Part shown: positions 13,852 to 60,400 of the stretch, one piece after another
Position numbering within the stretch: the stretch's first letter is position 1
Layout of the letters: each line of letters opens with the position of its first letter
Translations under genes and position numbers: made by a program
Assembly: GCF_003544935.1 (NCBI RefSeq)
Contig: NZ_CP032098.1
Location: forward strand, 1,240,001-1,304,000
DNA from: Malaciobacter molluscorum LMG 25693
Lineage (GTDB): Bacteria > Campylobacterota > Campylobacteria > Campylobacterales > Arcobacteraceae
Reading direction: 5' to 3'
DNA length: 64,000 bases
The notes under the pieces: model-generated
What the model was told of the DNA's origin: nothing
Seen by the model: the letters and a program-made list of their open reading frames with translations, nothing else
Databases searched by the model: none

Positions 13852-15186
13852 TTGAAAAAATTATTGACCACTGTGATTTTGACAGTAGCCACATTTTTGA
13901 TAGCTAACATGGCTTTTAGTGTACAACATTCTATACTGTTATCAATTATTGTGTTACTAGTTACTTTATGGACAAATGAAGCTTTACCTTTAGGTGTTGT
14001 TTCTTTACTTCCTATACTTTTATTTCCCTCTTTTGATATATTGAGTACAAATGCAACAACTGTGAACTACTCAAAATCTATTATTTTCTTATTCTTGGGT
14101 GGTTTTATGATTGCAATTGCAACTCAAAAAACTGATTTACATAAATATATAGCAAATAAATTATTAACACTTTTTCCTAATACTCCAAGAGGAATTATTT
14201 TTTCTCTTGCTATTACATCAGCTGTTTTAAGCTCTCTTATCTCAAATACAACAACTGCTTTGTTATTAATACCAATCGCAATGTTTTTGACAAAAGATAT
14301 GAAATTAAAACTTAGACTTGTTTTATCTATTGCATATGGTGCAAGTATAGGTGGTATTTTAACTCCTATTGGAACTCCTCCTAACTTAATTTTATTAGGA
14401 TTTATGGAACAACACAATATGGAACCAATAGCATTTGTTCAATGGATAGTTTTAGCTTTACCATTAGTTGTTATTATGCTGGTTTTAATTCCATTTGTTT
14501 TATCTCTTGGAGTTAATCACCTAAAATTTGATACTCATTTAGAACAAAGAGAACATCTTACTAGTGATCAAAGAAGATTACTTTATATTTTAGGAAGTTT
14601 AATTGTTTTGCTTTTTGTAAATTCAAAAATCGAACCATATTATTCAGGTTTAGGAATAAATGAAAAAGGTATTTTATTAGGATTTGGATTATTAATGTTT
14701 ATTCCAAAAATAGGATTTTTAAATTGGGAAGATACAAAGAAAATTCCATATGAAATTATATTTTTATTTGGTGCAGGTTTCTCTATTGCTGCTGCATTTT
14801 CATCAACAGGACTTGCAAATGAAATTGCAAATTATTTACTTGCTTTAACACATATGCCTGTAATTTTATTAATCCTTCTTGTTGCATCTTTAATAACATT
14901 TACAACTGAAGTTACATCAAATACTGCACTTATTTCTATAGCATTGCCAATTATTTATTCATTAGGTAAAGCTGCAAATATAGATGTTAATTTGATTTTA
15001 TTTGTTTCTACTATCTGTGCTTCATATGCATTTATGCTTCCTATTGCAACACCTCCAAATGCAATTGCTATGAGTAGTGGTGCAGTAAAAGTAAAAGATA
15101 TGGCAACATTTGGTTTAATTTTTAATTTCTTAGGAATTATTTCTATAACAATAGTTGCTTTAGTATATTGGCAATTTTATTTATAA
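13852..15186 (+). CDS. DASS/SLC13-family sodium:anion symporter
   Basis: This is an inner-membrane symporter, probably sodium-driven, for dicarboxylates, sulfate or a similar anion. The 444-residue protein has about twelve hydrophobic segments and the two inverted-repeat signatures of the family: ISNTTTALLLIPIAM with IGTPPNLILLGF in the first half, and VTSNTALISIALP with ATPPNAIAMSSG in the second. The start is TTG, preceded by AAAGGA with eight bases between. It is transcribed alone and followed by a hairpin. The 205-base gap before it is A/T-rich with no other gene. Substrate is not determined by sequence. Confidence 0.88.
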   Translation: MKKLLTTVILTVATFLIANMAFSVQHSILLSIIVLLVTLWTNEALPLGVVSLLPILLFPSFDILSTNATTVNYSKSIIFLFLGGFMIAIATQKTDLHKYIANKLLTLFPNTPRGIIFSLAITSAVLSSLISNTTTALLLIPIAMFLTKDMKLKLRLVLSIAYGASIGGILTPIGTPPNLILLGFMEQHNMEPIAFVQWIVLALPLVVIMLVLIPFVLSLGVNHLKFDTHLEQREHLTSDQRRLLYILGSLIVLLFVNSKIEPYYSGLGINEKGILLGFGLLMFIPKIGFLNWEDTKKIPYEIIFLFGAGFSIAAAFSSTGLANEIANYLLALTHMPVILLILLVASLITFTTEVTSNTALISIALPIIYSLGKAANIDVNLILFVSTICASYAFMLPIATPPNAIAMSSGAVKVKDMATFGLIFNFLGIISITIVALVYWQFYL

Positions 15187-15384: not shown

Positions 15385-18300
15385 ATGTCTTTTTTTAAAA
15401 AATTTTTAAGTGGTAACTCAGAACCAACAAGTGATGAACTAATCGATGCAATTAAAAGTGATAATGTAAATAAAGTTATAAAAATATTACCTTTAGAAGA
15501 TATTAATAAAGAAGATAATAATTTTGAAACACCAATTAATTTTGCATTAAAATTTTCAAGTTTAAAGGTTTTAAAATATCTATTAGAAAATAATGCAACT
15601 TTAGAAGAAACAATTGATGGGCAAAGTATTATTACTTATTTGATTTCAAAAAAAGCTTCTTTAGAGATGATTAAATATATGCATGAGTATGGAGCAAGTA
15701 CTGAATCAAAATATGGTTCTTTACCTTTAGAAATGGCGTTCCAAGTAGGAAGTCCTTTTGAAGTATTTGAATATATTTTTAAGAATTTTGGAACTTCAAG
15801 AACAGAAGATAATAAATATTTAATTCACGATATTGTTGATAGTGAGATCATAGATTCTGATACAAAAGGAAAACTTTTAACTCTTCTTGTAGAAGAGTAT
15901 GATTTTGATATAAATGAAGAACCAGGAAAGCATCTTCATATCTCTTCAAAACTTTTAAATAATAGGAATCATGATTTATTAAAAGTTGTAATTAAATTAG
16001 GGGCAAAAGTAAATTCTATAGCGGAATTTCTAGAAGAAAGAATAGGTGCAAAAGAGATTAAAAAACTTTTACCTTATATATTAAAATCACCTCAAAATAA
16101 AATGGAATATATCACTTGTCTTTTAGATTTTAAATCATATAAAGAGTATATACAAAGTTTGGATACAGCAAAAGATAAAGGGCTTGTATTAGATATTACT
16201 TTAAATAAATCATTTCATGATAAAGAAAAAATAGAATTACTTAAACTTATTTTAGAAAAACAAGCAGATATAAATGAATTATCAAATGAAGAACACCCAA
16301 GAAATGCTCTTTGGAATTTCACAGCAGAATTTGCTATAGGAAAAAATACTCTTTTATTAGATTTTTTAATTGATTCTGGTTGTACAATTGAAACTGAAAA
16401 ACATTCAGCTCTTTTTATCCCTATTTCAGATAATGATCTATTTTTAGTAGAACATCTTTTAAAAAAAGGTGCAAATGTAAATTTTGTAAATTATTTTGAT
16501 AATACAGCTTTAAATTATGTTATTTGGCCAAAAGCAAAGTTTTCAAATGACAAAGAACGAATAGAGATGTTAAAATTGCTTCTTGATTATGGTGTTGATA
16601 TAAATATTCCACTTTCTCACTATAAAGACTCACCTACAAATAATACTTCTTTTTTTGAAGCAGCTATTAATGTTTGTGGTTCTGAGTTTATTGATTATAT
16701 TATAGACAGATTTCCTGATTTTAAAGCAACAGATGCTTGTATTAGATTTGCAATAGAAAATGATTTAAATTTGGAAACTTCAAAAAAAATTATTTCAAAA
16801 AATCCTTATGTTTTATTTGAAAATGAAGTATATTGTAAACTAAGAGAAAAGTCTTTTGATGAGGGAATACTATATTTAGCATTGTTAAAGAATAAAGAGG
16901 ATTTAGCAAATTTTATTATGGATAATTTTCCTGATGTAAAATCTTATTGTGATACTTATCCTTTAGTTTTAACTGCTTTATATAAAGAATTTAGTTTTGA
17001 TACTATTAAAAAATTGATTGCTTTTGATAAAGATATAAATAGATTATATTATTGTGAATCAGAGGGTGGTGAAACTTATTCTTTGGTATCGTATCTCCTG
17101 GATGCTTATGGAAAAGATCTTACAGAAGATGAAAAAATAAATTTTTTAAATGTTATGATTGAAAATGGTGTTGATTTATCTATTCTTACTAATTCTTTGA
17201 ATCCTTCAAATCAATCATTAAATAATAAGGGTATTTTTGTATTACATGCAGTGTATTCAAATACTTTTGAAAATAGAGTAATAGATTTACTTCTTGAAAA
17301 TGGTATTGACCCATATGAGCCAGTAGCAAATTTAAATGAATCTCAAATGCACACTATAATAAATAGATATAGGAATGTATCTGATGAAAAATGTTTACAA
17401 TATTTAGAGTATTTAGAACAAAAAGGTTATAAAATTGATCTAGAACATAGAAATACAATGGGTACAGATATTTTACTTGGCGCTTGTATGATGAATAGAC
17501 CAAAAACTTTAAAATGGATTATTGATAAAGGTGCAAACATTCATGTGATAGGTGGTTTTGATAATTCTCCAGCTTTACATAAATCAATTTCAAATTATTC
17601 TCATTTTATAGATCCATTATTAAGAGCTCAAACAGTAAAAGTTTTAATAGATGCAGGTTGTGATATAGAACAAATAGATTCAGAACAGTTTACACCTTTA
17701 ATGAGTGCTGCAAATTATGGTTGTTTTGAAGTAGCAAGAGTTTTAGTAGATGCAGGAGCAAATATAAACTTTTATAATGAAGCTAAAGAAAATATTGCTC
17801 ATAGGGCTATTATGACTGATGTTGAAGCATATGATGATAAAGAAAATTCTAATTTAGTATATTCAAAAATTTTAGCACTTTTAAAAGATGCAGGATTAGA
17901 TTTAAATAAATCTTCAGATGAAGTTGTACCTCCATTACATTTAAGTATTCTTTATGGTAAAAAAGAGATTTATAATGTATTGTTACAATTGGAACTTGAT
18001 TTAAATGCAAAAGATATGCAAGGTAGAACACCTCTTATGCTTGCAATTTGTTATGCTGATATGTATTATGTAAATAGTTTAATGAGTAAAGGTGTAAAAA
18101 TTGATATTATAGATTCATATAATGAATCTATACATTATTATGCCATTAGAAGAGAAAATGAAGATGAGAGTGTAAAAATGCTTAAATATTTCCTTTCTCA
18201 AGATATAGAAATAGGAAAAGGATATAATAATAGAGACCTTCTTCATATTTCTGCTTATTATGTAAATCTTCAAGCTTTATATATAATAAAAGATATGTTT

Positions 18301-18606
18301 GATGATTTTAATCAAAAAGATTTAACTGGTTTTACCCCTTTACATTGGGCTTGTTATAGTAATTTAGATATTGATCAAAGCAAAAGAATCGAAGTAGTGA
18401 AATTTTTAATTGAAAATGGTGCTAATATAAATGAAAGACATCCTGATGGAGGAAATGCTTTATCTTTTGCTGTTTTAGCAGGACTAAAAGATTTAGCAGA
18501 TCAATTAATAGATTTAGGTTCTGATGTTCAAGTAGCATTAAACAGTGTAAAAAATGTAGAAGGTATAGCTCCTGAAGCAATAGCATATCTTGAGAGTAGT
18601 TTATAA
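15385..18606 (+). CDS. Giant ankyrin-repeat protein (first of a tandem pair)
   Basis: The 1073-residue protein is built largely of ankyrin-type repeats, protein-binding helix pairs of about 33 residues. Clear repeats include TPINFALKFSSLKVLKYLLE near the N-terminus, TPLMSAANYGCFEVARVLVD, GRTPLMLAICYADMYYV and TPLHWACYSN near the C-terminus, with G-A-N-I-N or D-I-N loops between them. The middle repeats are more diverged. No signal peptide or membrane segment is seen, so it should be cytoplasmic unless it is secreted by a signal-less route. Its stop overlaps the ATG of a similar 1087-residue gene. No catalytic domain is recognised; binding partner and role are unknown. Confidence 0.85.
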   Translation: MSFFKKFLSGNSEPTSDELIDAIKSDNVNKVIKILPLEDINKEDNNFETPINFALKFSSLKVLKYLLENNATLEETIDGQSIITYLISKKASLEMIKYMHEYGASTESKYGSLPLEMAFQVGSPFEVFEYIFKNFGTSRTEDNKYLIHDIVDSEIIDSDTKGKLLTLLVEEYDFDINEEPGKHLHISSKLLNNRNHDLLKVVIKLGAKVNSIAEFLEERIGAKEIKKLLPYILKSPQNKMEYITCLLDFKSYKEYIQSLDTAKDKGLVLDITLNKSFHDKEKIELLKLILEKQADINELSNEEHPRNALWNFTAEFAIGKNTLLLDFLIDSGCTIETEKHSALFIPISDNDLFLVEHLLKKGANVNFVNYFDNTALNYVIWPKAKFSNDKERIEMLKLLLDYGVDINIPLSHYKDSPTNNTSFFEAAINVCGSEFIDYIIDRFPDFKATDACIRFAIENDLNLETSKKIISKNPYVLFENEVYCKLREKSFDEGILYLALLKNKEDLANFIMDNFPDVKSYCDTYPLVLTALYKEFSFDTIKKLIAFDKDINRLYYCESEGGETYSLVSYLLDAYGKDLTEDEKINFLNVMIENGVDLSILTNSLNPSNQSLNNKGIFVLHAVYSNTFENRVIDLLLENGIDPYEPVANLNESQMHTIINRYRNVSDEKCLQYLEYLEQKGYKIDLEHRNTMGTDILLGACMMNRPKTLKWIIDKGANIHVIGGFDNSPALHKSISNYSHFIDPLLRAQTVKVLIDAGCDIEQIDSEQFTPLMSAANYGCFEVARVLVDAGANINFYNEAKENIAHRAIMTDVEAYDDKENSNLVYSKILALLKDAGLDLNKSSDEVVPPLHLSILYGKKEIYNVLLQLELDLNAKDMQGRTPLMLAICYADMYYVNSLMSKGVKIDIIDSYNESIHYYAIRRENEDESVKMLKYFLSQDIEIGKGYNNRDLLHISAYYVNLQALYIIKDMFDDFNQKDLTGFTPLHWACYSNLDIDQSKRIEVVKFLIENGANINERHPDGGNALSFAVLAGLKDLADQLIDLGSDVQVALNSVKNVEGIAPEAIAYLESSL

Positions 18607-21600
18607 TGTCGTTTTTAGATAAGTTATTTGGAGAAAATAAAGAGGAAAAAGAACTTGCCTCAAATGAACAGGAGAGTACAAACTTTTTTGATATTGATAA
18701 TATAAAAGATACAGAAACTATAGAACAGATTATAAAATATAATGATTTTAATATTTTAAAAACAAAAATTAATAGTTCTAATTGTAGGCAAGCAGATAAT
18801 AATTTTAAGATGCCTTTATATTATGCAACAATTAATAAAAGAATTGAAGTTATAAAATATCTTTTTGAATTAGGTTGTGATTTTGAAGATGCAAAAGGGA
18901 TGCTTGGAGGTAGTGCAATAATTACTATCATAAGTACAGGTAATAAAGAAATTTTAAAAACTTTTATTGAAGCTGGATATAAAGTAATCTCAGGTAAAAG
19001 TGCTATTATGGCAATTTCAGTTGAAAATGCACCATTAGATTTTATAGAATATTTGATTGAACTTGATGTTCCTATGGATAGTTTAGAAAGAAAAATATCT
19101 AAAGATTTAATTGACGAAGATACAAAAGAGCAGTATGAAAAATATACACCTTTAGAACTTGCAGTATTTAATAATAGAGAATATGAAGTTTTAGAAGCTT
19201 TAATCCAAGCTGGATGTCCTTTAAATGAAGAAAAAAATATCAATTTTGTTTCAAGAGTAATAAACACTAGTCTTAGTCCTTCTACGAAAGCAAAAACTTT
19301 ACATTTGTTAAATAGATTAAATAAATTGGATTTAAATATAAAAGATGAAGAAGGAAATAATCTAGTCAAACAAGCTATTAATGTAGGTGATACTAGATCT
19401 TTAAAAGAGTTGATTTTATTAGGGGCCGATTTCTCCGATTATATTTATACAATAAATGATATGCTAACTATAAAAGATTTAGAATATATTATAGATTCTA
19501 TTAAAAGTCAAGGTAAAAATATAGATGACTTTTTATCTTTACTTGTAAAATCAAGAATAGAAAGTTATATGCAAGAGTATGATGATTTAAGTCATAAAAA
19601 TATTATATATCAGATTGTTATAAATACTAGATTAGAAGAGAATGAAAAGGTTGAATTATTACAAATAGCTCTTTCAAAAAAAGCTGATATAAATTTTACT
19701 TTGTGTGATGATAAAAATACACTATTTATAGTTTGTAAAAATTTATTTATAGGAAAAGATATTTGTGTTGCCAAATTTTTATTGGAAAATGGTGCAGAGA
19801 TTGAATATGGTGGAAATAGTGCTCTATTTCATGCAATTAGTGAATATAATATTCCTTTAATAGAACTTCTTTTATCTTTTAATGCAAATACAAATTTTGT
19901 AAATAATGAAAAAGAAGGGGTAATTAATTATTTTTATAAAGAACATATAAATTTAAATAGTGTAGTTAAAAAAAGAGAAGTTTTACAACTGCTTGTTAAT
20001 TCAGGTTTAAATATTAATACTCAAGTTAAATATGAAACAAAAGATAAAAAATTCGAAGATGAACTTATATCTTTTTTTGCTATTTTTTGTATTGAAAATG
20101 AGTTTAGACTTATTGATTATATTTTTGAAAATAATATTGAAATTAAAGATGAAGAGTCTATTTATTATGCAATAAAATATCTTAAAAAAGATATTTTATT
20201 AAAAGAGATTATTAAAATAAATCCTTCTTATGAAAGAAAAAATTATTATGAAAGATTAGGTGAAAAATCAAATGCAAATATTATACATTTAGCTTTTGAA
20301 AATTATTTATCTGAAGAGTTTATTTATTATGTTTTAGAAACTTATCCTACTATAAAAGCATACAATGAAATTGAACCTATTGCTTTACATATCATTAAGT
20401 CAAGTTTCTATTCTTTGGAAATTTTTGAAAAAATTATTAAAAAAGATAATAATATTAATAGATACTACTCTTTTCAAACTAATGATGAGATAGGTGAATA
20501 TATATCAAAAGGTACATTATTATTATGTCTTGCCAGATTAGCTAAAGATTTAGATAAGAATAATAAATATTTTAAAGCTATAAAAATTCTTTTAGAAAAT
20601 GGTGTTGATATTAATTTGGCTTATAAATTTGGACATAATAACAAAGTATATCCTAAAGGGCATTCTGTTTTTATTAGTGCGATAAATAAAAATAGATTAA
20701 ATAAAGAGTTATATGATCTATTTTATGAATATGGCGGAAGTTTGATAAAACCAGTAAAAGAGTGCTTTAATGAATCTTCTATTCATTCAATACTTAGATT
20801 TTTGGATGATGATAATGTTATTATTGAATATTTAGATTATTGTTGGGAAAAAGAACCTTTTGATTTAGAATATAAAAATAGTATGAATTCTACTATCTTA
20901 TTAAATGCTGCTATGAGTTGTAATGCAAAAGTTATAAAATGGCTTGCAAATAAAGGGGCAAATGTTAATATTGTAGGTGGTTATGATAATTGTTCTGCTT
21001 TACATAAAGCAATCGATAATTACTCTTTTATTGATCCATTACAAAGACTTGATACTGTAAAAACATTACTTGACTTAGGTGTAGATATAGAGCAGTTCGA
21101 TAGTGAACAAAAGACACCTTTAATGGTTGCTGCAAATGTAGGAACAACTCATGTATTAAAAGAATTATTACAAAGAGGTGCAGATGTAAATCATGTTAAT
21201 GAAAACAATGAAAGTGCAATACATTTTGCTGTATTAGGTAAATATAGTTATGATTTGGATTTTAGATTTGAAACAATAAAAAGTAAAATAATTACTGACT
21301 TGGTAAATGCAAAAGCAGACATAAATTTAGTAAGCGATAATGGAGCAACAGCTCTTATATATGCTATAGATTATGGATATAGGGAAATTTTTGATACTTT
21401 AATTAATTTTGATGCTGATGTTAATCAGGCTTGTTCACATGGTTATACTCCTTTATATTATGCAACTTTAATTAAAGATAGATATTTTATAAATAAACTT
21501 TATGCTACAAATAAACTTGATGTAAATAAAGTAAATGAATTTAATTTTACAGTTTTACATCAAATAGTAAACTTAGATATACCAAATGAAGTGTTTAAAA

Positions 21601-21869
21601 ATATGCTTATTAAACTTATTGAAATGGGCCTAGATATAAATTATCATAAAAATATTGAACCTGCACTTTTAATGTATATAAAAACAATGGAATTTGTAGG
21701 AGATAGACAAGTTGGATTTGTGTCATCAAAGAAAAAACCAAAAGAGATAGAACATAAAAAAGTTGAGATTTTTATAGAATATGGTGCAGATTTAAATTTA
21801 TGTTTAGAGTTTGCAAAAAAACAAAATGAACCAAAAGATATTTTTGAATATTTAGAAAGCTTAATATAA
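18606..21869 (+). CDS. Giant ankyrin-repeat protein (second of a tandem pair)
   Basis: The 1087-residue protein is a diverged paralogue of the gene before it. Both start with a short MSF..K.F/LFG-like leader, and both keep a stretch with IDPL.R..TVK.L.D.G.DIEQ.DSEQ.TPLM.AAN near the same distance from the end. Ankyrin repeats such as TALIYAIDYGYREIFDTLIN and TPLYYATLIKDRYFI are clear; the N-terminal two thirds carry more degenerate repeats. It has no signal peptide or membrane helix. The start overlaps the first gene's stop (TAATG), so the two are made together, perhaps as partners. Duplication followed by divergence is inferred. Confidence 0.85.
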   Translation: MSFLDKLFGENKEEKELASNEQESTNFFDIDNIKDTETIEQIIKYNDFNILKTKINSSNCRQADNNFKMPLYYATINKRIEVIKYLFELGCDFEDAKGMLGGSAIITIISTGNKEILKTFIEAGYKVISGKSAIMAISVENAPLDFIEYLIELDVPMDSLERKISKDLIDEDTKEQYEKYTPLELAVFNNREYEVLEALIQAGCPLNEEKNINFVSRVINTSLSPSTKAKTLHLLNRLNKLDLNIKDEEGNNLVKQAINVGDTRSLKELILLGADFSDYIYTINDMLTIKDLEYIIDSIKSQGKNIDDFLSLLVKSRIESYMQEYDDLSHKNIIYQIVINTRLEENEKVELLQIALSKKADINFTLCDDKNTLFIVCKNLFIGKDICVAKFLLENGAEIEYGGNSALFHAISEYNIPLIELLLSFNANTNFVNNEKEGVINYFYKEHINLNSVVKKREVLQLLVNSGLNINTQVKYETKDKKFEDELISFFAIFCIENEFRLIDYIFENNIEIKDEESIYYAIKYLKKDILLKEIIKINPSYERKNYYERLGEKSNANIIHLAFENYLSEEFIYYVLETYPTIKAYNEIEPIALHIIKSSFYSLEIFEKIIKKDNNINRYYSFQTNDEIGEYISKGTLLLCLARLAKDLDKNNKYFKAIKILLENGVDINLAYKFGHNNKVYPKGHSVFISAINKNRLNKELYDLFYEYGGSLIKPVKECFNESSIHSILRFLDDDNVIIEYLDYCWEKEPFDLEYKNSMNSTILLNAAMSCNAKVIKWLANKGANVNIVGGYDNCSALHKAIDNYSFIDPLQRLDTVKTLLDLGVDIEQFDSEQKTPLMVAANVGTTHVLKELLQRGADVNHVNENNESAIHFAVLGKYSYDLDFRFETIKSKIITDLVNAKADINLVSDNGATALIYAIDYGYREIFDTLINFDADVNQACSHGYTPLYYATLIKDRYFINKLYATNKLDVNKVNEFNFTVLHQIVNLDIPNEVFKNMLIKLIEMGLDINYHKNIEPALLMYIKTMEFVGDRQVGFVSSKKKPKEIEHKKVEIFIEYGADLNLCLEFAKKQNEPKDIFEYLESLI

Positions 21870-21897: not shown

Positions 21898-21919
21898 ATT
21901 ATAGCCATTTGGCTATAAT
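21898..21919 (+). promoter_or_regulatory. mutS2 promoter embedded in a palindrome
   Basis: A perfect inverted repeat with nine-base arms, ATTATAGCC – ATTT – GGCTATAAT, ends in the -10 hexamer TATAAT (21914–21919), preceded by G-C as in Campylobacterota promoters. The expected start of transcription, seven bases further, falls one base before the mutS2 ATG. The palindrome could be an operator, a terminator of the ankyrin operon, or both. Confidence 0.6.
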
Positions 21920-21926
21920 TCGCCCT

Positions 21927-24122
21927 ATGCAAGATATAATAAAAAAACTAGACCTAACAGAATATTTAGAAACATTTCAAGAACTTTTTTCAAGAAAAAA
22001 AAGTATTGTTATTGAAGGCGATATTCATTTACATTATAAATTAATAGAAGAACTATCAAAGTTTGATTTCAATGCACCAAAAGAGGTTGCAAATTTAGAT
22101 AACTGCTTAATACATATTCAAAAGCAGGGAATTTTAAAACTTTATGATATCTATGAGTTTACTAAAATTATCAGATATTTTTTATATTTAAAAAGATTTA
22201 ATTTTGAAGGAAAATTAAAAGAGTGGATTGATAAAATAGTTGTGCCTAATGATATTTTGGAACTTGATAACTATTTTGATTCTAAAGGAAATTTAAAACA
22301 AGGGATTGATGAGGATTTTGATAATATTCAGGATGCAATTTATAAAAATAAAGAATTAATTAGACAAAATCTTTATAAATTAATTAACTCATCAAAATTA
22401 AAACCATATTTAGTTGATACTCAAGTACACTTAATAAATGATCAAGAAGCTATCTTGGCAAGAGGTGGTTTTAATCATGTTGTTAAAGCAACAGTTATAC
22501 ATAGATCGAATTCAGGATTTTTCTATATTGTCCCTCATACTATAAGTGAGTTAAAACAAAAAAGAAGTGATCTTATAAATAAGCAAGAAGAAGTTATTTT
22601 AAAACTTTGTAAACAAATATCATCTATGTTTGAAAAAAACTTACTATTTTTAAAATTTATAAATAAAGAATTTGATAGATTTGATCATTATCAAGCAAGA
22701 CTATTTTTTGCAAAATCACAAGATAAAAACTTTTTATTGCCAAGTAAAAAAAACAATTGTAAGTTAATAGATTTTAAGCATCCTGCCTTATCAGGGGCAA
22801 AACCTATTACTGTTGATTTCTCAAAATCAGTTATCATGATTACTGGTGTAAATGCTGGTGGTAAAACAATGATGTTAAAATCAATTTTATCTTCAGTTTT
22901 TATGTCTAAATATTTGATTCCTTATCATGCAGATAAGTCATCTCAAATTGGCAGTTTTAAAAATATTTTGGCTGTTTTGGATGATCCTCAAAGTGTAAAA
23001 AATGATATTTCTACATTTGCGGGAAGAATGGTAGAGTTTTCTTCTTTATTTACACAAAGAAATGCAATTGTTGGAGTTGATGAGATTGAGTTGGGGACTG
23101 ATTCTGATGAAGCCGCAAGTTTATTTAAAGTAATAATCGAAGAGTTAATAAAAAAAGATATTAAAATAATCATAACAACTCACCATAAAAGACTAGCTGC
23201 ATTATTAGCATCAAATGATGATGTTGAGTTAATAGCAGCACTTTATGATGAAGAAAATCGAATACCAACTTATGAATTCTTACAAGGAACTATTGGAAAA
23301 TCATATGCTTTTGAAACGGCAAGTAGATATGGAATTCCCCATAATATTGTGAAATTAGCAAAAAAAGTATATGGTGAAGATAAAGATAAGTTAAATGAAC
23401 TTATTGAAAGAAGTAGTGAACTTGAAAGAGAGTACAAACAAAAAATCCAAAAACTTGATGAAGAGTTAGAAAAAACAAATAGATTACAAAAAGGTTTAAA
23501 AGAGCAAAGAGAAAACTTAGATCAGTTAATATATTCGGAAAAGTCTAAACTTCAAAGAGAGTATAAAGATGCTAGGGATGAAGCAAAAAAAGCAATTAAA
23601 GCGAAGATTTATCAAGAAGGTCATAGACATTTAAATACAGCACACTCTAAAGCTTCAAGTATTAAAACTCAAAGTGTAAAAGAGTATGAAGAGTTAAAAG
23701 TAGGTGATAGAGTAAAATATAGAACTTCTAAAGGAGTATTAGTCTCTATAAAAGGTAAACAAGCATTTATAGAAAATGATTCAGGAATGAAAATGAAAGT
23801 TCCTTTGTCAGAGTTATCAAGAAGTGGGAATATCCCAAAAATAAAACCCAAAACAACTGTAACTATATCTAAGCCAGAGACAGGAAGTGTTACTCTTGAT
23901 TTACATGGACAAAGAGTCGAAGAAGCTTTAGAAAATTTAGATAAGTTTTTATCTGATGCTTTAATTGCAGGGTTTGATGAAATTTTAGTTTATCATGGAA
24001 TAGGAACAGGAAAATTAGCAGCAGCAGTTAAAAAATATCTTGATAAACATCCAAAAATAAAATCATATGAAGATGCACATCCAAGTAGTGGTGGTTTTGG
24101 AGCAAAAGTAATTAAATTATAG
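21927..24122 (+). CDS. mutS2: MutS2 endonuclease / ribosome-rescue ATPase
   Basis: MutS2 is a MutS-like ATPase with a C-terminal Smr nuclease domain; in other bacteria it suppresses recombination or splits collided ribosomes. Visible parts are a MutS core with Walker A GVNAGGKTMML and the downstream GVDEIELGTDSDEAAS, a long charged coiled coil (about residues 490–570), and an Smr domain with LDLHGQRVEEAL and YHGIGTGKLAAAV at the C-terminus. I place the start at the ATG at 21927 (731 residues); an in-frame TTG at 21909 lies inside the promoter palindrome. There is no ribosome binding site and the -10 box is seven bases upstream, so the transcript may be leaderless. Confidence 0.92.
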   Translation: MQDIIKKLDLTEYLETFQELFSRKKSIVIEGDIHLHYKLIEELSKFDFNAPKEVANLDNCLIHIQKQGILKLYDIYEFTKIIRYFLYLKRFNFEGKLKEWIDKIVVPNDILELDNYFDSKGNLKQGIDEDFDNIQDAIYKNKELIRQNLYKLINSSKLKPYLVDTQVHLINDQEAILARGGFNHVVKATVIHRSNSGFFYIVPHTISELKQKRSDLINKQEEVILKLCKQISSMFEKNLLFLKFINKEFDRFDHYQARLFFAKSQDKNFLLPSKKNNCKLIDFKHPALSGAKPITVDFSKSVIMITGVNAGGKTMMLKSILSSVFMSKYLIPYHADKSSQIGSFKNILAVLDDPQSVKNDISTFAGRMVEFSSLFTQRNAIVGVDEIELGTDSDEAASLFKVIIEELIKKDIKIIITTHHKRLAALLASNDDVELIAALYDEENRIPTYEFLQGTIGKSYAFETASRYGIPHNIVKLAKKVYGEDKDKLNELIERSSELEREYKQKIQKLDEELEKTNRLQKGLKEQRENLDQLIYSEKSKLQREYKDARDEAKKAIKAKIYQEGHRHLNTAHSKASSIKTQSVKEYEELKVGDRVKYRTSKGVLVSIKGKQAFIENDSGMKMKVPLSELSRSGNIPKIKPKTTVTISKPETGSVTLDLHGQRVEEALENLDKFLSDALIAGFDEILVYHGIGTGKLAAAVKKYLDKHPKIKSYEDAHPSSGGFGAKVIKL

Positions 24123-24230: not shown

Positions 24231-26363
24231 TTGATTGATTTTTTTGAAAATCCAATACAAAATATCTTAGATCATCAAAAGATTGCTATTAGAAAAAAAC
24301 AAGCTTTGTTTTTGACAAAACAAGATAAAAAGCATGAAGAAATTAAAACAGTTGGTGTAAGACTTCAAATGGAAGCTATGCAACTAGGTTTTGTTTTTAC
24401 AAATGAAGCTTTGAATTCTTTATTAAATGAAACAACAGTTTTAAAAAAAGAGATTTTGAATTTATTTAGTCAATTAACTGGTGCAAATAATATTTATAGA
24501 CCTTTTTATGAAAATTTTCCTTCTGAAGTTTTAGATCAAGATGATAGTGTTTTATACTTTAATGCCATTTTACACTATTTGTCACAAGGTATTTGGAGAC
24601 TTCCTTATCTTAAAAAAAATAGAGTTGATTTACCCTTAAAAGATATAGAATATAAAATAATAGATTTGATAAATGTAAATGATTATTTAGTATTATTTGA
24701 AAATTTATTATCTTCTGTTAGTTCTATCTCAAAAGATGATATGAAAAGTTTAGAGTTTTTTATTCGTGATTTTGATAGTGAAACACTTAAGAAGTTTTTA
24801 CCTAAACAAATAGTCTTTAAAGAAATACTTTGTAGCTTTTTTGGTCTTTGTCTTTTATATGAAAAAAATGATTTATTAGAAAACTTTGAATTAAAAACTT
24901 CAACAGATATTTTAAGAGTAGCTACTTTTATTAGTGGTGGAGATATATCATTAACTACAAATACAAAGTTTAAATTAAAAAGAAAAGTTAGAAAATATTT
25001 AATAAATAATCTAGAAAAAGTAATAATTATTGAAGATATTAAAAGACATGAAAAAAAATGGAAAAGACTTTTTCATTGTTTACATATTGGCGAATATAAA
25101 AATGCAAAAAAGTGTAATCAAATAGCTGATTTACTTAGAAATGAAAAATTAAGAACAAATAATTATATAATTGAACAAGCTTTGTTGGAATTAGATTTTG
25201 AAAAACTTATGGAATTTGTACCTCAAAATAGTGGAGAATTTGCACGAAGACTTGATCATTTGCTTAGAGTTTTTGATGAAAATAAGGCTAATAAAATTTT
25301 AGAAACTTTTAATAATAAGATTTCTAAAATCAGTAGTAAAGTTTTATATCAGTTATTAGCTCATTTTAGAGTTAGAAATAATAATCAAGAAAATATAATG
25401 CATAAGGAATTGTTAGATTTTAGAACAAGAGTTATTATGCCAAAAGGTGATGTTGGAAAAGTAAAAATATTAAAGTCAAAATTACCTGCAATATCTCAAA
25501 TTATTGTAAATAATATAATAAATGTAATCAAACAAGAACTTTTAAATAGATATAAAGATTTAGGAAATTTAGGAAAAGTCTGGATAAGTCCAAGTTTAAA
25601 AAATGCTCCAATACCTTTACAAATGAGAAGTTCTTCAGAAGGCTTAAAAGTAATTCAAAGAGGTACTAGATTGCCAATAAAAAAAGATAAAAATATTTTA
25701 AGATTTTTTGTTCATTGGATTGGTTTTGATATAGATTTAAGTGCTTGTTTTCTAACAAAAGATTTTTTATTGTATTCTCAGATTGCTTATTTCAATCTAA
25801 AGGGGAATGATTATAAAGCAGTTCATAGTGGAGATATTACTTATGCACCAGCACCTAATGGAGCTTGTGAATTTATTGATATTGATTTATCTTCTATAAA
25901 AGATAAAAAAATAAGATATATAACATTAGATGTTAGAGTATATAGCGGACCTTCTTTTAAATATCAAAATGCCAATGTAGGATGGATGTTTAGAGATAAA
26001 TTAGCAGATGAAGGTGAGATTTTTGATGCAAGAACAGTAAATCAAAGAATTAGTATAACAAATGAAAGTCAAAAAACATGTTTAGTAGCAGCTTTTGATA
26101 TTTTAAAAAATGAAATTATTTGGTTAGATTTAAAGGGAAGTTCTTCTTGTTTAGTTTCAGGAAATAATGTATTAAGTAATGTTACAAATATTAGAGAACT
26201 TTTAAAATCAACAGTTGATTTCAAAGAGATAAGTTTATATGAATTATTTTATTTTCATGCTAATGCAAGAGGAGAATTGGTAGAAAATAAAGAAGATGCC
26301 AATACTGTTTTTGATGAGGATATGATTTTTAAATATGAAGAAGTTTTAGCAAAGTATATTTAA
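24231..26363 (+). CDS. Large protein with C-terminal TerD-like domain
   Basis: The 710-residue protein has a long helical N-terminal region without recognised motifs. From about residue 490 it has a TerD-type (tellurium/stress) domain: FFVHWIGFDIDLSACFL, then VHSGDITYAPAPNGACEFIDIDL and YITLDVRVYSGPSF. The aspartate-rich turns fit the calcium-binding motifs of TerD proteins. The order resembles the MXAN_6230/SCO0854-type family, in which a TerD-like domain ends a large protein; I cannot see a RING-type cysteine cluster at the N-terminus. The start is TTG after AAGGTAA. No other ter genes are nearby, so it is a stand-alone member. Function is unknown. Confidence 0.7.
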   Translation: MIDFFENPIQNILDHQKIAIRKKQALFLTKQDKKHEEIKTVGVRLQMEAMQLGFVFTNEALNSLLNETTVLKKEILNLFSQLTGANNIYRPFYENFPSEVLDQDDSVLYFNAILHYLSQGIWRLPYLKKNRVDLPLKDIEYKIIDLINVNDYLVLFENLLSSVSSISKDDMKSLEFFIRDFDSETLKKFLPKQIVFKEILCSFFGLCLLYEKNDLLENFELKTSTDILRVATFISGGDISLTTNTKFKLKRKVRKYLINNLEKVIIIEDIKRHEKKWKRLFHCLHIGEYKNAKKCNQIADLLRNEKLRTNNYIIEQALLELDFEKLMEFVPQNSGEFARRLDHLLRVFDENKANKILETFNNKISKISSKVLYQLLAHFRVRNNNQENIMHKELLDFRTRVIMPKGDVGKVKILKSKLPAISQIIVNNIINVIKQELLNRYKDLGNLGKVWISPSLKNAPIPLQMRSSSEGLKVIQRGTRLPIKKDKNILRFFVHWIGFDIDLSACFLTKDFLLYSQIAYFNLKGNDYKAVHSGDITYAPAPNGACEFIDIDLSSIKDKKIRYITLDVRVYSGPSFKYQNANVGWMFRDKLADEGEIFDARTVNQRISITNESQKTCLVAAFDILKNEIIWLDLKGSSSCLVSGNNVLSNVTNIRELLKSTVDFKEISLYELFYFHANARGELVENKEDANTVFDEDMIFKYEEVLAKYI

Positions 26364-37979: not shown

Positions 37980-37999
37980 ACTTGACCTACTTGTCAAGT
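37980..37999. promoter_or_regulatory. Palindromic operator for the TetR-type regulator
   Basis: A perfect inverted repeat with seven-base arms, ACTTGAC – CTACTT – GTCAAGT, lies between the divergent genes. It is next to the minus-strand -10 (TATTAT on the minus strand, 37974–37969) and in the -35 region of the plus-strand -10 (TATAAT, 38009–38014). A TetR dimer bound here could repress both. Binding is inferred from position and symmetry. Confidence 0.7.
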
Positions 38000-38008
38000 A
38001 AAAAATGT

Positions 38009-38014
38009 TATAAT
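38009..38014 (+). promoter_or_regulatory. -10 box of tetR, five bases before the ATG
   Basis: TATAAT is followed by ATTTA and the start codon. No ribosome binding site fits between, so a leaderless transcript is likely. Confidence 0.6.
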
Positions 38015-38019
38015 ATTTA

Positions 38020-38592
38020 ATGGAAAAAAGAACAAGAAATAATTTAATAGATTCAGCTTTTAAAGAGATATATGAAAAGGGGTACCAAGGTGCTTCTATG
38101 ACAACTATTTTAAATAATGCAAAAGTGCATAAAGGATCAATGTATCACTTTTTCGCAAATAAAAAAGAATTAGCATTAGTGTCTATAAAAGAGAAAATTT
38201 ATGCAAAATTTGTACAAAGATATACTTCAATTTTACAAAATGAATCAAACTATTTAGAAACTTTTATTGAAAGTTTAAAAGATATTACCCAAAGAGATTT
38301 TAATAAAGGTTGTCCTATCGCAAATGTAATACAAGAGATGTCAAATCTTGATAGTGATTTTAAAGTTTTGATGGAAAAAATTTATTTGTCTTTTAGAAAA
38401 AATATAAAAGATATTTTAGATAAAGCAGTTGAAAAAAAAGAGATGAAGCAATGTGATACTACAAAACTTGCACTTTACATAGCTTCAACTTTAGAAGGTG
38501 CAATACTTTCTGCAAAAGCAACAGGAAATATACAAGACTATTTAGATGTAGTAGAAATACTTTCTACTTATATTTTATCTTTTCGTTTATAA
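38020..38592 (+). CDS. TetR/AcrR-family regulator
   Basis: The 190-residue protein has the TetR N-terminal helix-turn-helix: KEIYEKGYQGASMTTILNNAKVHKGSMYHFFANKKELAL. The C-terminal ligand domain has a QRDFNKGCPIANVIQEMSN stretch like regulators of the NemR/YcdC-type branch, with one cysteine (in KGCPIAN) in a position that could sense electrophiles. It is divergent from an AhpD-like gene with an operator between. The -10 box is five bases upstream of the ATG, so translation is probably leaderless. Its stop lies directly against the remnant of a kinase gene, marking a deletion or insertion junction. Confidence 0.9.
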   Translation: MEKRTRNNLIDSAFKEIYEKGYQGASMTTILNNAKVHKGSMYHFFANKKELALVSIKEKIYAKFVQRYTSILQNESNYLETFIESLKDITQRDFNKGCPIANVIQEMSNLDSDFKVLMEKIYLSFRKNIKDILDKAVEKKEMKQCDTTKLALYIASTLEGAILSAKATGNIQDYLDVVEILSTYILSFRL

Positions 38593-53469: not shown

Positions 53470-54855
53470 TTATTTATTTTTTTGTTCTTGCCAAAGAGTA
53501 TAAAATATCTCAAGAGCTTTTTTTAAATCATTCTCTTTAAAACCTCCAAACCCCATAGATAAAACTTCTTCTTTTGTATTTAGATTTCTTAAATACAATT
53601 TCATATAATTGTTTTGTGCTTCTTTTTTTAATATTTCTAAATCTATATTTATTTTTGGTTTTATTAAAATATTTAGTCCACTTCCTTCTCTTAAAATCTC
53701 AATTTCATCTATCATTTTTGAATATAAGAAATTTTTCATAATATCATGTTTCTTTTTATTTTGAGTTCTTACTTTTCTTAAGTGCCTTTCCCAAAATCCC
53801 TCTTTTATAAATAAAGCAAGAGTTTTTTGTATATCAATAGGAATATTTGAAAAATAATAATCAAACTCTTTTTTGTACTTTTTTAATAATTTAGTAGGTA
53901 AAACTAAATAAGCAACTCTAATTGAAGGGGAAAATGATTTAGAAAAAGTTCCTGTATATATTACTTGTTCATTGTTATTTATACCTTGCATAGCTGGAAT
54001 AGGTCTATTATTGTAACTTAATTCACTATCATAATCATCTTCAATGATATAAGAGTTATTATCTTTTGCCCAATTTATTATTTCAATTCTATTTGCAATA
54101 GGAGTTGTCACTCCAAAAAAGTATTGATGGGATGGCGTTAGATATAGAAGTTTTGCATTGGATTTTTTTAATTGATTTAGATTTATACCATTTTGTTGTA
54201 CTTCAATCTCCTCAATCTCAAAATTATGTTGTTCAAAAACTTTTTTGGCAACTCTATAACTTGGAGTTTCAAACGCAATTTTTTTAATTTCATCTTTTAA
54301 TATTTTTGAAACTATAAACATAGAATCTGCAAAACCACTTGTAAGAACAATATTATCAACTGTACAGTTTACACTCCTTGAACTTTTAAGATATTTTACA
54401 ATTTGTTCTCTAAGTTCAATATCCCCTTGATTGTTGTGATATATTCCAAGATTTAAAGAGCTTTTTAAAACTTTATTATAAAGTCTTAGCCAGATTTTTT
54501 TTGGAAAAGTATCAGCACTTAAACAAGCTGGATAAAAGTCATATTTGATAATATCATCTGTTGTTTTATTTTCTAAATCAACTTCTTTTTCTTTTTTAAA
54601 ACTATCATAAAGATTTTCACTTACAAAATATCCACTTTGAGGAATACTCTCTATATAACCCTCTGCAAAAAGCTGATTATAAGCTGTTTGTACAGTATTT
54701 TTACTAATTTTATAATCTGTGGTCATTTTTCTAATAGAAGGCAGTTTTTCTCCAGCTTTTAGATTTGTTTGAATATCTTTTTTTATCTCTTCATAAAGTT
54801 GAAGATAGATTGGTTTTTTTAATTTTGAATCTATATTATACAAAACTGTCTCCAT
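53470..54855 (-). CDS. MocR-type regulator (GntR helix-turn-helix plus aminotransferase domain)
   Basis: The protein begins with a GntR-type winged helix (PIYLQLYEEIKKDIQTN, then KLPSIRKMTTDYKISKNTVQ) followed by a PLP-dependent aminotransferase fold (LTSGFADSMFIVSK; PLP lysine in YTGTFSKSFSPSIRVAYL). MocR proteins use PLP or its amino-acid adducts as ligands and do not catalyse in most cases. I choose the ATG at 54855, giving 461 residues; an ATG 12 codons earlier would include the promoter. On the minus strand TATAAT (54867–54862) lies six bases before this ATG, so the transcript may be leaderless. It is divergent from an operon with an AhpD-like, a flavin and a GNAT gene, its probable targets. 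Confidence 0.9.
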   Translation of the reverse strand: METVLYNIDSKLKKPIYLQLYEEIKKDIQTNLKAGEKLPSIRKMTTDYKISKNTVQTAYNQLFAEGYIESIPQSGYFVSENLYDSFKKEKEVDLENKTTDDIIKYDFYPACLSADTFPKKIWLRLYNKVLKSSLNLGIYHNNQGDIELREQIVKYLKSSRSVNCTVDNIVLTSGFADSMFIVSKILKDEIKKIAFETPSYRVAKKVFEQHNFEIEEIEVQQNGINLNQLKKSNAKLLYLTPSHQYFFGVTTPIANRIEIINWAKDNNSYIIEDDYDSELSYNNRPIPAMQGINNNEQVIYTGTFSKSFSPSIRVAYLVLPTKLLKKYKKEFDYYFSNIPIDIQKTLALFIKEGFWERHLRKVRTQNKKKHDIMKNFLYSKMIDEIEILREGSGLNILIKPKINIDLEILKKEAQNNYMKLYLRNLNTKEEVLSMGFGGFKENDLKKALEIFYTLWQEQKNK

Positions 54856-54861
54856 AAAAAA

Positions 54862-54867
54862 ATTATA
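54862..54867 (-). promoter_or_regulatory. -10 box of mocR with inverted repeat nearby
   Basis: TATAAT on the minus strand is followed by six T and the start codon. The inverted repeat TTGTA – GTAAG – TACAA (54877–54891) lies just upstream, between the divergent starts, and is a candidate MocR site. Confidence 0.5.
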
Positions 54868-54941
54868 ATTTGTATCTTGTAGTAAGTACAATTTATTGAT
54901 ATTATACGTAAAACAACTTAATAGATATTAAAGGATATAAA

Positions 54942-59467: not shown

Positions 59468-59497
59468 TTGACTTTTTATATTTGATTTTTGTAATAT
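59468..59497 (+). promoter_or_regulatory. Promoter of the AraC-family gene
   Basis: TTGACT (59468–59473) and TAATAT (59492–59497) are separated by 18 bases, and the ATG comes six bases later. There is no ribosome binding site, so the mRNA is probably leaderless. Confidence 0.55.
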
Positions 59498-59503
59498 TCT
59501 TTT

Positions 59504-60400
59504 ATGAATAACAATATTGAAAATATAGAAGATTTTTATAAACATAAGTTTAACTCTCTTCCTTTAACTTTTGCAAATGAACTAGGGCATTTTAATGTAT
59601 TTAAAAGGGGTCCTTCAAAAATAAAGTCTATAAAATTTGGGAGAAGAGATTTTTTTAAAATATCTTTATTAAAAGGTAAAATAAAGATTAATTATTTGGA
59701 AAAAAGTATTATAAGTGATAAATATGTATTACTTATTTCTGATCCATTAGTTCCATATTCTTGGGAAACTTTAGAAGATAGTTTAGGTGGTGCTTATTGT
59801 ATTTTTAGTAAAGATTTCTTTTTTGATTTTGTTGATATTAGAAAATATCCTTTATTTAAATTAGATGCAAAAAAAGCTTTTTTATTAAATGAACAAAATG
59901 TTATAGATATTGAAAATATCTACGAAAAGATGTTTAAGGAAATAGAATCAATTTATATTTATAAATATGATGTATTAAGAAATCTTGTATTAGAATTAAT
60001 TCACTATGTTATGAAATTAGATTTAAACTCATTAATTCATAAAGATATAGATACAAATATAACTATAACAACAAAATTTAATGAAATACTTCAAAGACAA
60101 TTTCCTATTGAATCGCCATATCAAAGAGTTGAGTTAAAAACACCAAGTGATTTTTCAAATGTATTAAATATACATACAAATCATCTAAATAAAACATTGA
60201 AAACAACAACAGGAAGAACAACATCAGAACTTATTGCAACTAGATTTGCCCAAGAAGCAACTGCTTTATTGAAACATACTTCTTGGACAATAAGTGATAT
60301 TGCTTATGCTTTAAAATTTGAAGAGACTTCACATTTTATAAATTTTTTCAAAAAACATTTTAATCAAACTCCAAAAAAATTTAGAGACTTAATAAAATAA
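59504..60400 (+). CDS. AraC-family regulator (upstream of MFS transporter)
   Basis: The 298-residue protein has a C-terminal AraC/XylS domain of two helix-turn-helix units (SDFSNVLNIHTNHLNKTLK, then TSWTISDIAYALKFEETSHF and FFKKHFNQTPKKFRDL). The N-terminal half looks like a cupin-type sensor. It is followed after 99 bases by an MFS gene in the same direction and probably regulates that gene and the YciI gene. The promoter leaves no room for a leader. Ligand unknown. Confidence 0.9.
   Translation: MNNNIENIEDFYKHKFNSLPLTFANELGHFNVFKRGPSKIKSIKFGRRDFFKISLLKGKIKINYLEKSIISDKYVLLISDPLVPYSWETLEDSLGGAYCIFSKDFFFDFVDIRKYPLFKLDAKKAFLLNEQNVIDIENIYEKMFKEIESIYIYKYDVLRNLVLELIHYVMKLDLNSLIHKDIDTNITITTKFNEILQRQFPIESPYQRVELKTPSDFSNVLNIHTNHLNKTLKTTTGRTTSELIATRFAQEATALLKHTSWTISDIAYALKFEETSHFINFFKKHFNQTPKKFRDLIK

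Follow-up and report, generated by a model that had tools for sequence, protein, structure and literature searches.

A predicted leaderless mutS2 mRNA in Malaciobacter molluscorum and its conservation among Arcobacteraceae

Background

Leaderless mRNAs are already known in Campylobacterota, where they have been described in Campylobacter jejuni and Helicobacter pylori (PMC3847290). Most of the mapped transcription starts of C. jejuni lie 4-8 nt after a gnTAnaAT element, and the leaderless genes share this layout (PMC3847290). The same work describes leaderless status as little conserved in the phylum, with one exception, and predicts cj1247c/hp0820 to be leaderless in every species that has it (PMC3847290). 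The string 'mutS' has no occurrence in the main text of that report, and PMC3656092 contains no match for leaderless, mutS or Cj1052. A literature search on mutS2 and leaderless returned a match on archaea only and no report for mutS2, and adding Helicobacter pylori returned none. For leaderless mRNAs or transcription starts in Arcobacter, the search led to PMC3847290 and to work on tuberculosis, with none on Arcobacter among the matches listed elsewhere. Leaderless mRNAs as such are thus not new to the phylum, but we found no report of a leaderless mutS2.

Here we analyse a stretch of 64,000 nucleotides (the window), which covers positions 1,240,001-1,304,000 of the 2.80 Mb chromosome of Malaciobacter molluscorum LMG 25693. 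The G+C content of the window is 25.5%, and the same figure is given for the genome. An original prediction for this DNA held that four genes, mutS2, tetR, mocR and araC, share one promoter arrangement and are transcribed into leaderless mRNAs.

Results

The promoter and start codon of mutS2

The layout claimed for mutS2 is exact in the sequence: TATAAT is followed by seven bases and ATG (21927-21929), and the absence of a ribosome binding site also holds, as no SD-like or purine-rich sequence precedes the ATG. The elements are as follows.

21898-21919, no strand assigned: inverted repeat ATTATAGCC-ATTT-GGCTATAAT with perfectly matching 9-bp arms, the right one containing the mutS2 -10 box
21914-21919, plus strand: -10 element TATAAT of the mutS2 promoter
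21920-21926, plus strand: G+C-rich discriminator TCGCCCT
21927-24122, plus strand: mutS2 coding sequence with a predicted leaderless mRNA

Transcription is predicted to start where the discriminator ends, on the A of the ATG or one base earlier. The TTG at 21909, from which the listed open reading frame begins, was rejected as the true start, since it lies above the promoter and its frame is not kept. Motif frequency was likewise rejected as evidence for the promoter, being at chance level both in the window (5 copies of TATAAT-N7-ATG vs 3.66 expected) and genome-wide (181 vs 190 for a reversed control). The copy at mutS2 stands above chance because it lies at a conserved start and is retained in relatives. 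On the 3' side of mutS2, an ORF of 710 aa (24231-26363) has no Pfam match at E 0.001.

Distribution of the arrangement in Arcobacteraceae

The gene is present in 98 of 104 Arcobacteraceae genomes; the comparison of upstream DNA covers 90 of these, window included. The aligned start is ATG in 81/90. A box is found 5-7 nt before the start in 60/90 genomes, the window among them, as TATAAT in 52 and TACAAT in 8, and this conservation supports the claim that mutS2 is leaderless. Spacing from box to start is 5 in 5 genomes, 6 in 35 and 7 in 20, and the layout is seen in 10 of the 19 genera represented, while the sequences upstream of the promoter differ between genomes. The variable spacer shifts the reading frame above the ATG, and therefore no conserved start of translation lies higher up. 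SD is absent in all 60 promoter-bearing genomes, although partly by construction, because the -10 box fills that place.

The leaderless-type arrangement is missing from 30/90 genomes, and in 7/90 the codon aligned with the first residue is neither ATG nor GTG nor TTG. Among the 83 with a usable start, 23 are without the box, and one of these (G035) has TATACT at the same place. In 18 of the 23 box-less genomes, the longest upstream frame ends no more than 22 nt from mutS2; for this reason, mutS2 seems to switch between a leaderless-type promoter of its own and a position within an operon, much as reported for cj0153c (PMC3847290). Loss of SD in the box-less genomes is too weak to be claimed (SD-like match in 10/23 vs 439/688 genes, p = 0.04). 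Outside the family, among 20 genomes that represent 11 further families of the order, two (L222 and L234) have the leaderless layout and nine an SD-like match. Judged from these genomes, the arrangement is mainly one of Arcobacteraceae.

An insertion just upstream and the inverted repeat

In all five congeners (G001-G005) mutS2 closely follows a transporter frame that ends in YWQ, and the transporter was confirmed there as a full ORF in one congener, L010. In the window, by contrast, 6.7 kb with other genes separate the end of the transporter from mutS2.

13852-15186, plus strand: gene of the citrate/sodium-symporter family (Pfam CitMHS), with the C-terminus YWQFYL shared with L010
15188-15215: strong hairpin with a 12-bp stem (z -6.58) that directly follows the transporter gene
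15385-21869, plus strand: two long ankyrin-repeat genes between transporter and mutS2, not there in the five congeners

Directly before mutS2, about 42 bases of the window match congener G005, with 3 mismatches over 42 bases and 22 over 70, and they contain the whole mutS2 promoter. The promoter has hence stayed with mutS2 despite the insertion just upstream. A search for direct repeats, made at each edge of the insertion apart, found none.

The perfect repeat at the promoter (9/9 pairs) occurs in 13/60 mutS2 promoters and in 0/92 ordinary ones, and the YWQ end of the transporter is near 11 of the 13. Its RNA fold has a z of -2.26. No terminator is indicated for mutS2 at this repeat, as there is no T-run on the mutS2 strand and the terminator scan lists the stem on the minus strand only. 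The repeat may serve as an operator, as a promoter in both directions or as a 3' hairpin shared with the transporter. By eye, the hairpin after the transporter in the window is similar to this repeat in sequence, and its stem seems to carry paired changes.

A G+C-rich discriminator

G and C make up 258 of the 375 bases between the -10 box and the ATG of mutS2 (69%; 60 promoter-bearing genomes). At the 92 ordinary promoter-like sites, where TATAAT lies 20-34 nt ahead of a start, the next six bases have 21% G+C; this sets many genomes for mutS2 against one genome for the ordinary sites. The per-genus means for mutS2 also exceed the ordinary sites (10 genera, p = 9e-6). One genus, represented by a single genome, has a discriminator without any G or C. 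In the sampled DNA, 15 of the 653 TATAAT sites outside called genes have at least four G/C in the next six bases; the 15 include mutS2 and one site before tRNA genes. In L187, tRNA genes Asp-Val-Glu-Lys stand in tandem repeats, and in the copy whose promoter is visible (TTGACA, TATAAT) the box is followed by TTCCACTCC.

Two readings of the mutS2 discriminator are suggested by its composition. One is a promoter sensitive to growth rate or ppGpp; the other is that the discriminator makes the A of the ATG the best starting base, and C or T stands directly before the ATG in 44/60 genomes. The property is not general to leaderless-type starts, because six other discriminators of this type following TATAAT in the same genome have only 0-3 G/C.

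The tetR, araC and mocR genes

Identity of arrangement at all four genes did not hold: it is exact for mutS2, while tetR and mocR have spacers of five and six bases and araC has no TATAAT.

37982-37997, no strand assigned: inverted repeat TTGAC-N6-GTCAA over the tetR promoter, operator-like
38009-38022, plus strand: TATAAT-N5-ATG of tetR (ATG at 38020)
59492-59506, plus strand: TAATAT-N6-ATG of araC (ATG at 59504), with TTGACT upstream
54853-54867, minus strand: TATAAT-N6-ATG of mocR (ATG at 54855), for which 30 orthologues do not support a leaderless start

We took as leaderless in type a start with a sigma-70 -10 box 5-9 nt before a conserved ATG and no SD. Both traits are found for mutS2 (in the window, and at 5-7 nt in 60/90 genomes) and for tetR, where TATAAT (14) or TACAAT (4) precedes the ATG by 5-6 nt in 18 of 20 orthologues, window included, without SD. 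For araC they were read by eye: a -10-like hexamer lies 5-7 nt before the ATG in 9/9 orthologues, again with the window included, and varies among TAATAT, TATGAT, TATTAT, TATCAT and TATAAT. Layout and conservation together thus argue for leaderless mutS2, tetR and araC mRNAs, and not for mocR.

In mocR, a conserved start codon 5-9 nt after the box is lacking, since 24/30 orthologues do not have that ATG; 27/30 start downstream, with ATG or TTG, then TAT or TAC, shortly past a purine box containing GG. The conserved start in the window is TTG 54843-54841 (minus strand), behind GGAG. With GGAGACAGTT-TTG in the window, mocR most likely has a leader. Upstream of it (54860-54920, minus strand), a TGTAC...GATACA pair and TATAATATC further up recur in orthologues by eye; they are likely to be a real operator and promoter.

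TetR-family repressors with an operator over their own promoter are known. The tetR gene described here resembles them in its inverted repeat, a putative operator just above the -10 box that is conserved in 18/20 orthologues, and differs in being leaderless in layout as well. It is probably autoregulated in addition to its leaderless layout. In several orthologues there is, by eye, an apparent second copy of the repeat further up. The wider proposal that leaderless starts serve low-level or autoregulated genes is not established: the tetR repeat fits autoregulation, but mutS2 has no sign of it.

Leaderless-type starts in the genome

We called 749 genes with a simple ORF caller in a sample of 864 kb (31% of the chromosome). 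TATAAT is most frequent 20-34 nt ahead of the start (92 sites); a small group of genes has it at a distance of 5, 6 or 7 nt (2, 5 and 2 genes), and none has it at 3, 4, 9 or 10. The excess in this group is slight, with 10 at 5-8 nt vs 7.3 for every four positions in the range 40-103 nt upstream. Among its members are mocR, for which a leaderless start was refuted, and a doubtful TTG-start gene with an SD-like box. The case for a genome-wide class consequently rests on the contrast in SD: 35 of the 688 ATG genes have TAnnAT at 5-6 nt, and SD is absent in 26 of the 35 vs 223 of the 653 others (p = 5e-6). Compared with internal in-frame ATGs, TAnnAT at 5-7 nt is only about twofold in excess (42/688 vs 140/4377), a control that is blurred by the three-base rhythm of coding DNA. 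These TAnnAT and SD counts put leaderless-type starts at no more than a few per cent of the genes.

Among the candidates are recR, an Ada-like protein, a GreA-type factor, two response regulators and an S4-FtsJ methyltransferase. With TATAAT-N7-ATG and the discriminator CCGATTT (L197:1120-1180), recR would by its layout be another leaderless-type DNA-repair gene. Excluding mocR and five operon-internal cases from 31 candidates leaves 25, of which 10 are regulators or signalling proteins according to Pfam in the sampled DNA. Among 80 random genes, Response_reg, HxlR and HATPase_c each count 2 in the 25 of 158 families listed; against this background of 25 of 158 families, an enrichment of regulators is not established.

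Discussion

Origin of the mutS2 mRNA

We consider it very probable that mutS2 has its own sigma-70 promoter and that its mRNA starts at the A of the AUG or within one or two bases of it, without leader or SD. The -10 box, seven bases before the start codon, would then set the start of the mRNA; RNA polymerase with sigma-70 would begin on the A of the ATG, and the ribosome would bind the bare 5'-AUG directly, in the way established for other leaderless mRNAs. A variant with the same real promoter has transcription starting 1-5 bases ahead of the ATG, so that the mRNA would carry a very short leader without SD and be functionally near-leaderless, and it overlaps with our explanation, which itself permits one or two bases. 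Start-site choice commonly varies by a base or two, and this general variability would suit such a leader, as would the spacing of 5-7 among the relatives and the G at 21922 in the window. However, CCCT adjoins the ATG in the window and the last base is C or T in 44/60 genomes, and we regard the variant as unlikely.

Two further accounts would give the TATAAT a lesser role. Were mutS2 expressed mainly by read-through from upstream, with SD-less or coupled translation, the box would be incidental; TATAAT is indeed common in AT-rich DNA, and the 18 of 23 box-less genomes with an upstream frame ending within 22 nt agree with such expression. We still hold this to be very improbable, as exact TATAAT at 5-7 nt is kept in 52/90 genomes and, in the window, a strong hairpin (z -6.58) stands at the end of the transporter, with 6.7 kb and other genes before mutS2 is reached. 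Alternatively, the element could act first of all as an operator or as a 3' hairpin in the transporter mRNA, with its role as a promoter secondary. Such a role would fit the perfect repeat in 13/60 promoters vs 0/92 ordinary ones, with 11 of the 13 near the YWQ end, and the second hairpin of similar sequence at the transporter of the window. It would not account for the 47/60 promoters that keep box and spacing without a perfect repeat, nor for the missing T-run on the mutS2 strand and the stem that the terminator scan lists on the minus strand only, and we find it improbable. Returning to the promoter at the start codon as the preferred explanation, read-through transcripts of mutS2 may exist beside the leaderless one.

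Comparison alone, without RNA data, makes a leaderless start likely here, and the layout is kept at one gene across most of the family's examined genomes.

The MutS2 protein and a possible feedback

The product is identified as MutS2 by Pfam MutS_V (60.7 bits) and Smr (84.6 bits), both above cut-off. For a KOW/SH3 domain before Smr there is an MSSS match at residues 592-630 below threshold (20.3 bits vs a cut-off of 26.8). The translated Smr domain contains LDLHG and HGIGTG. The protein thus resembles MutS2 of Bacillus subtilis in having MutS domain V, a C-terminal Smr and the HGxG motif, but it has DLH where the latter has DLR (PMC10897456). DxH residues are described as rare in MutS2-type proteins (PMC10897456), and with them the Smr domain encoded in the window is possibly a nuclease.

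In B. subtilis MutS2 splits collided or stalled ribosomes (PMC10897456), and leaderless mRNAs are described as the known case in which 70S ribosomes initiate directly (PMC6897966); the accessible part of PMC10897456 holds nothing on leaderless expression. Taken together, these two activities suggest that a leaderless mutS2 might form a feedback, translated preferentially when intact 70S ribosomes pile up or 30S initiation fails, while the G+C-rich discriminator would make its transcription depend on growth rate or ppGpp. We give this idea little credence, but it is directly testable and, if true, would provide a physiological reason for a gene being leaderless.

Comparison with known leaderless mRNAs of the phylum

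The mutS2 start is similar to the leaderless mRNAs described in Epsilonproteobacteria (PMC3847290) in having a -10 box of the gnTAnaAT type 5-9 nt before the ATG and no SD. The set in that report likewise contains DNA-repair genes (nth and mutY), and its leaderless starts, too, are gained and lost among relatives, with the gene in an operon or behind an SD in other genomes (PMC3847290). Unlike that set, as far as it is described in the accessible part of the report, mutS2 keeps its layout in most examined genomes of one family and has a G+C-rich discriminator.
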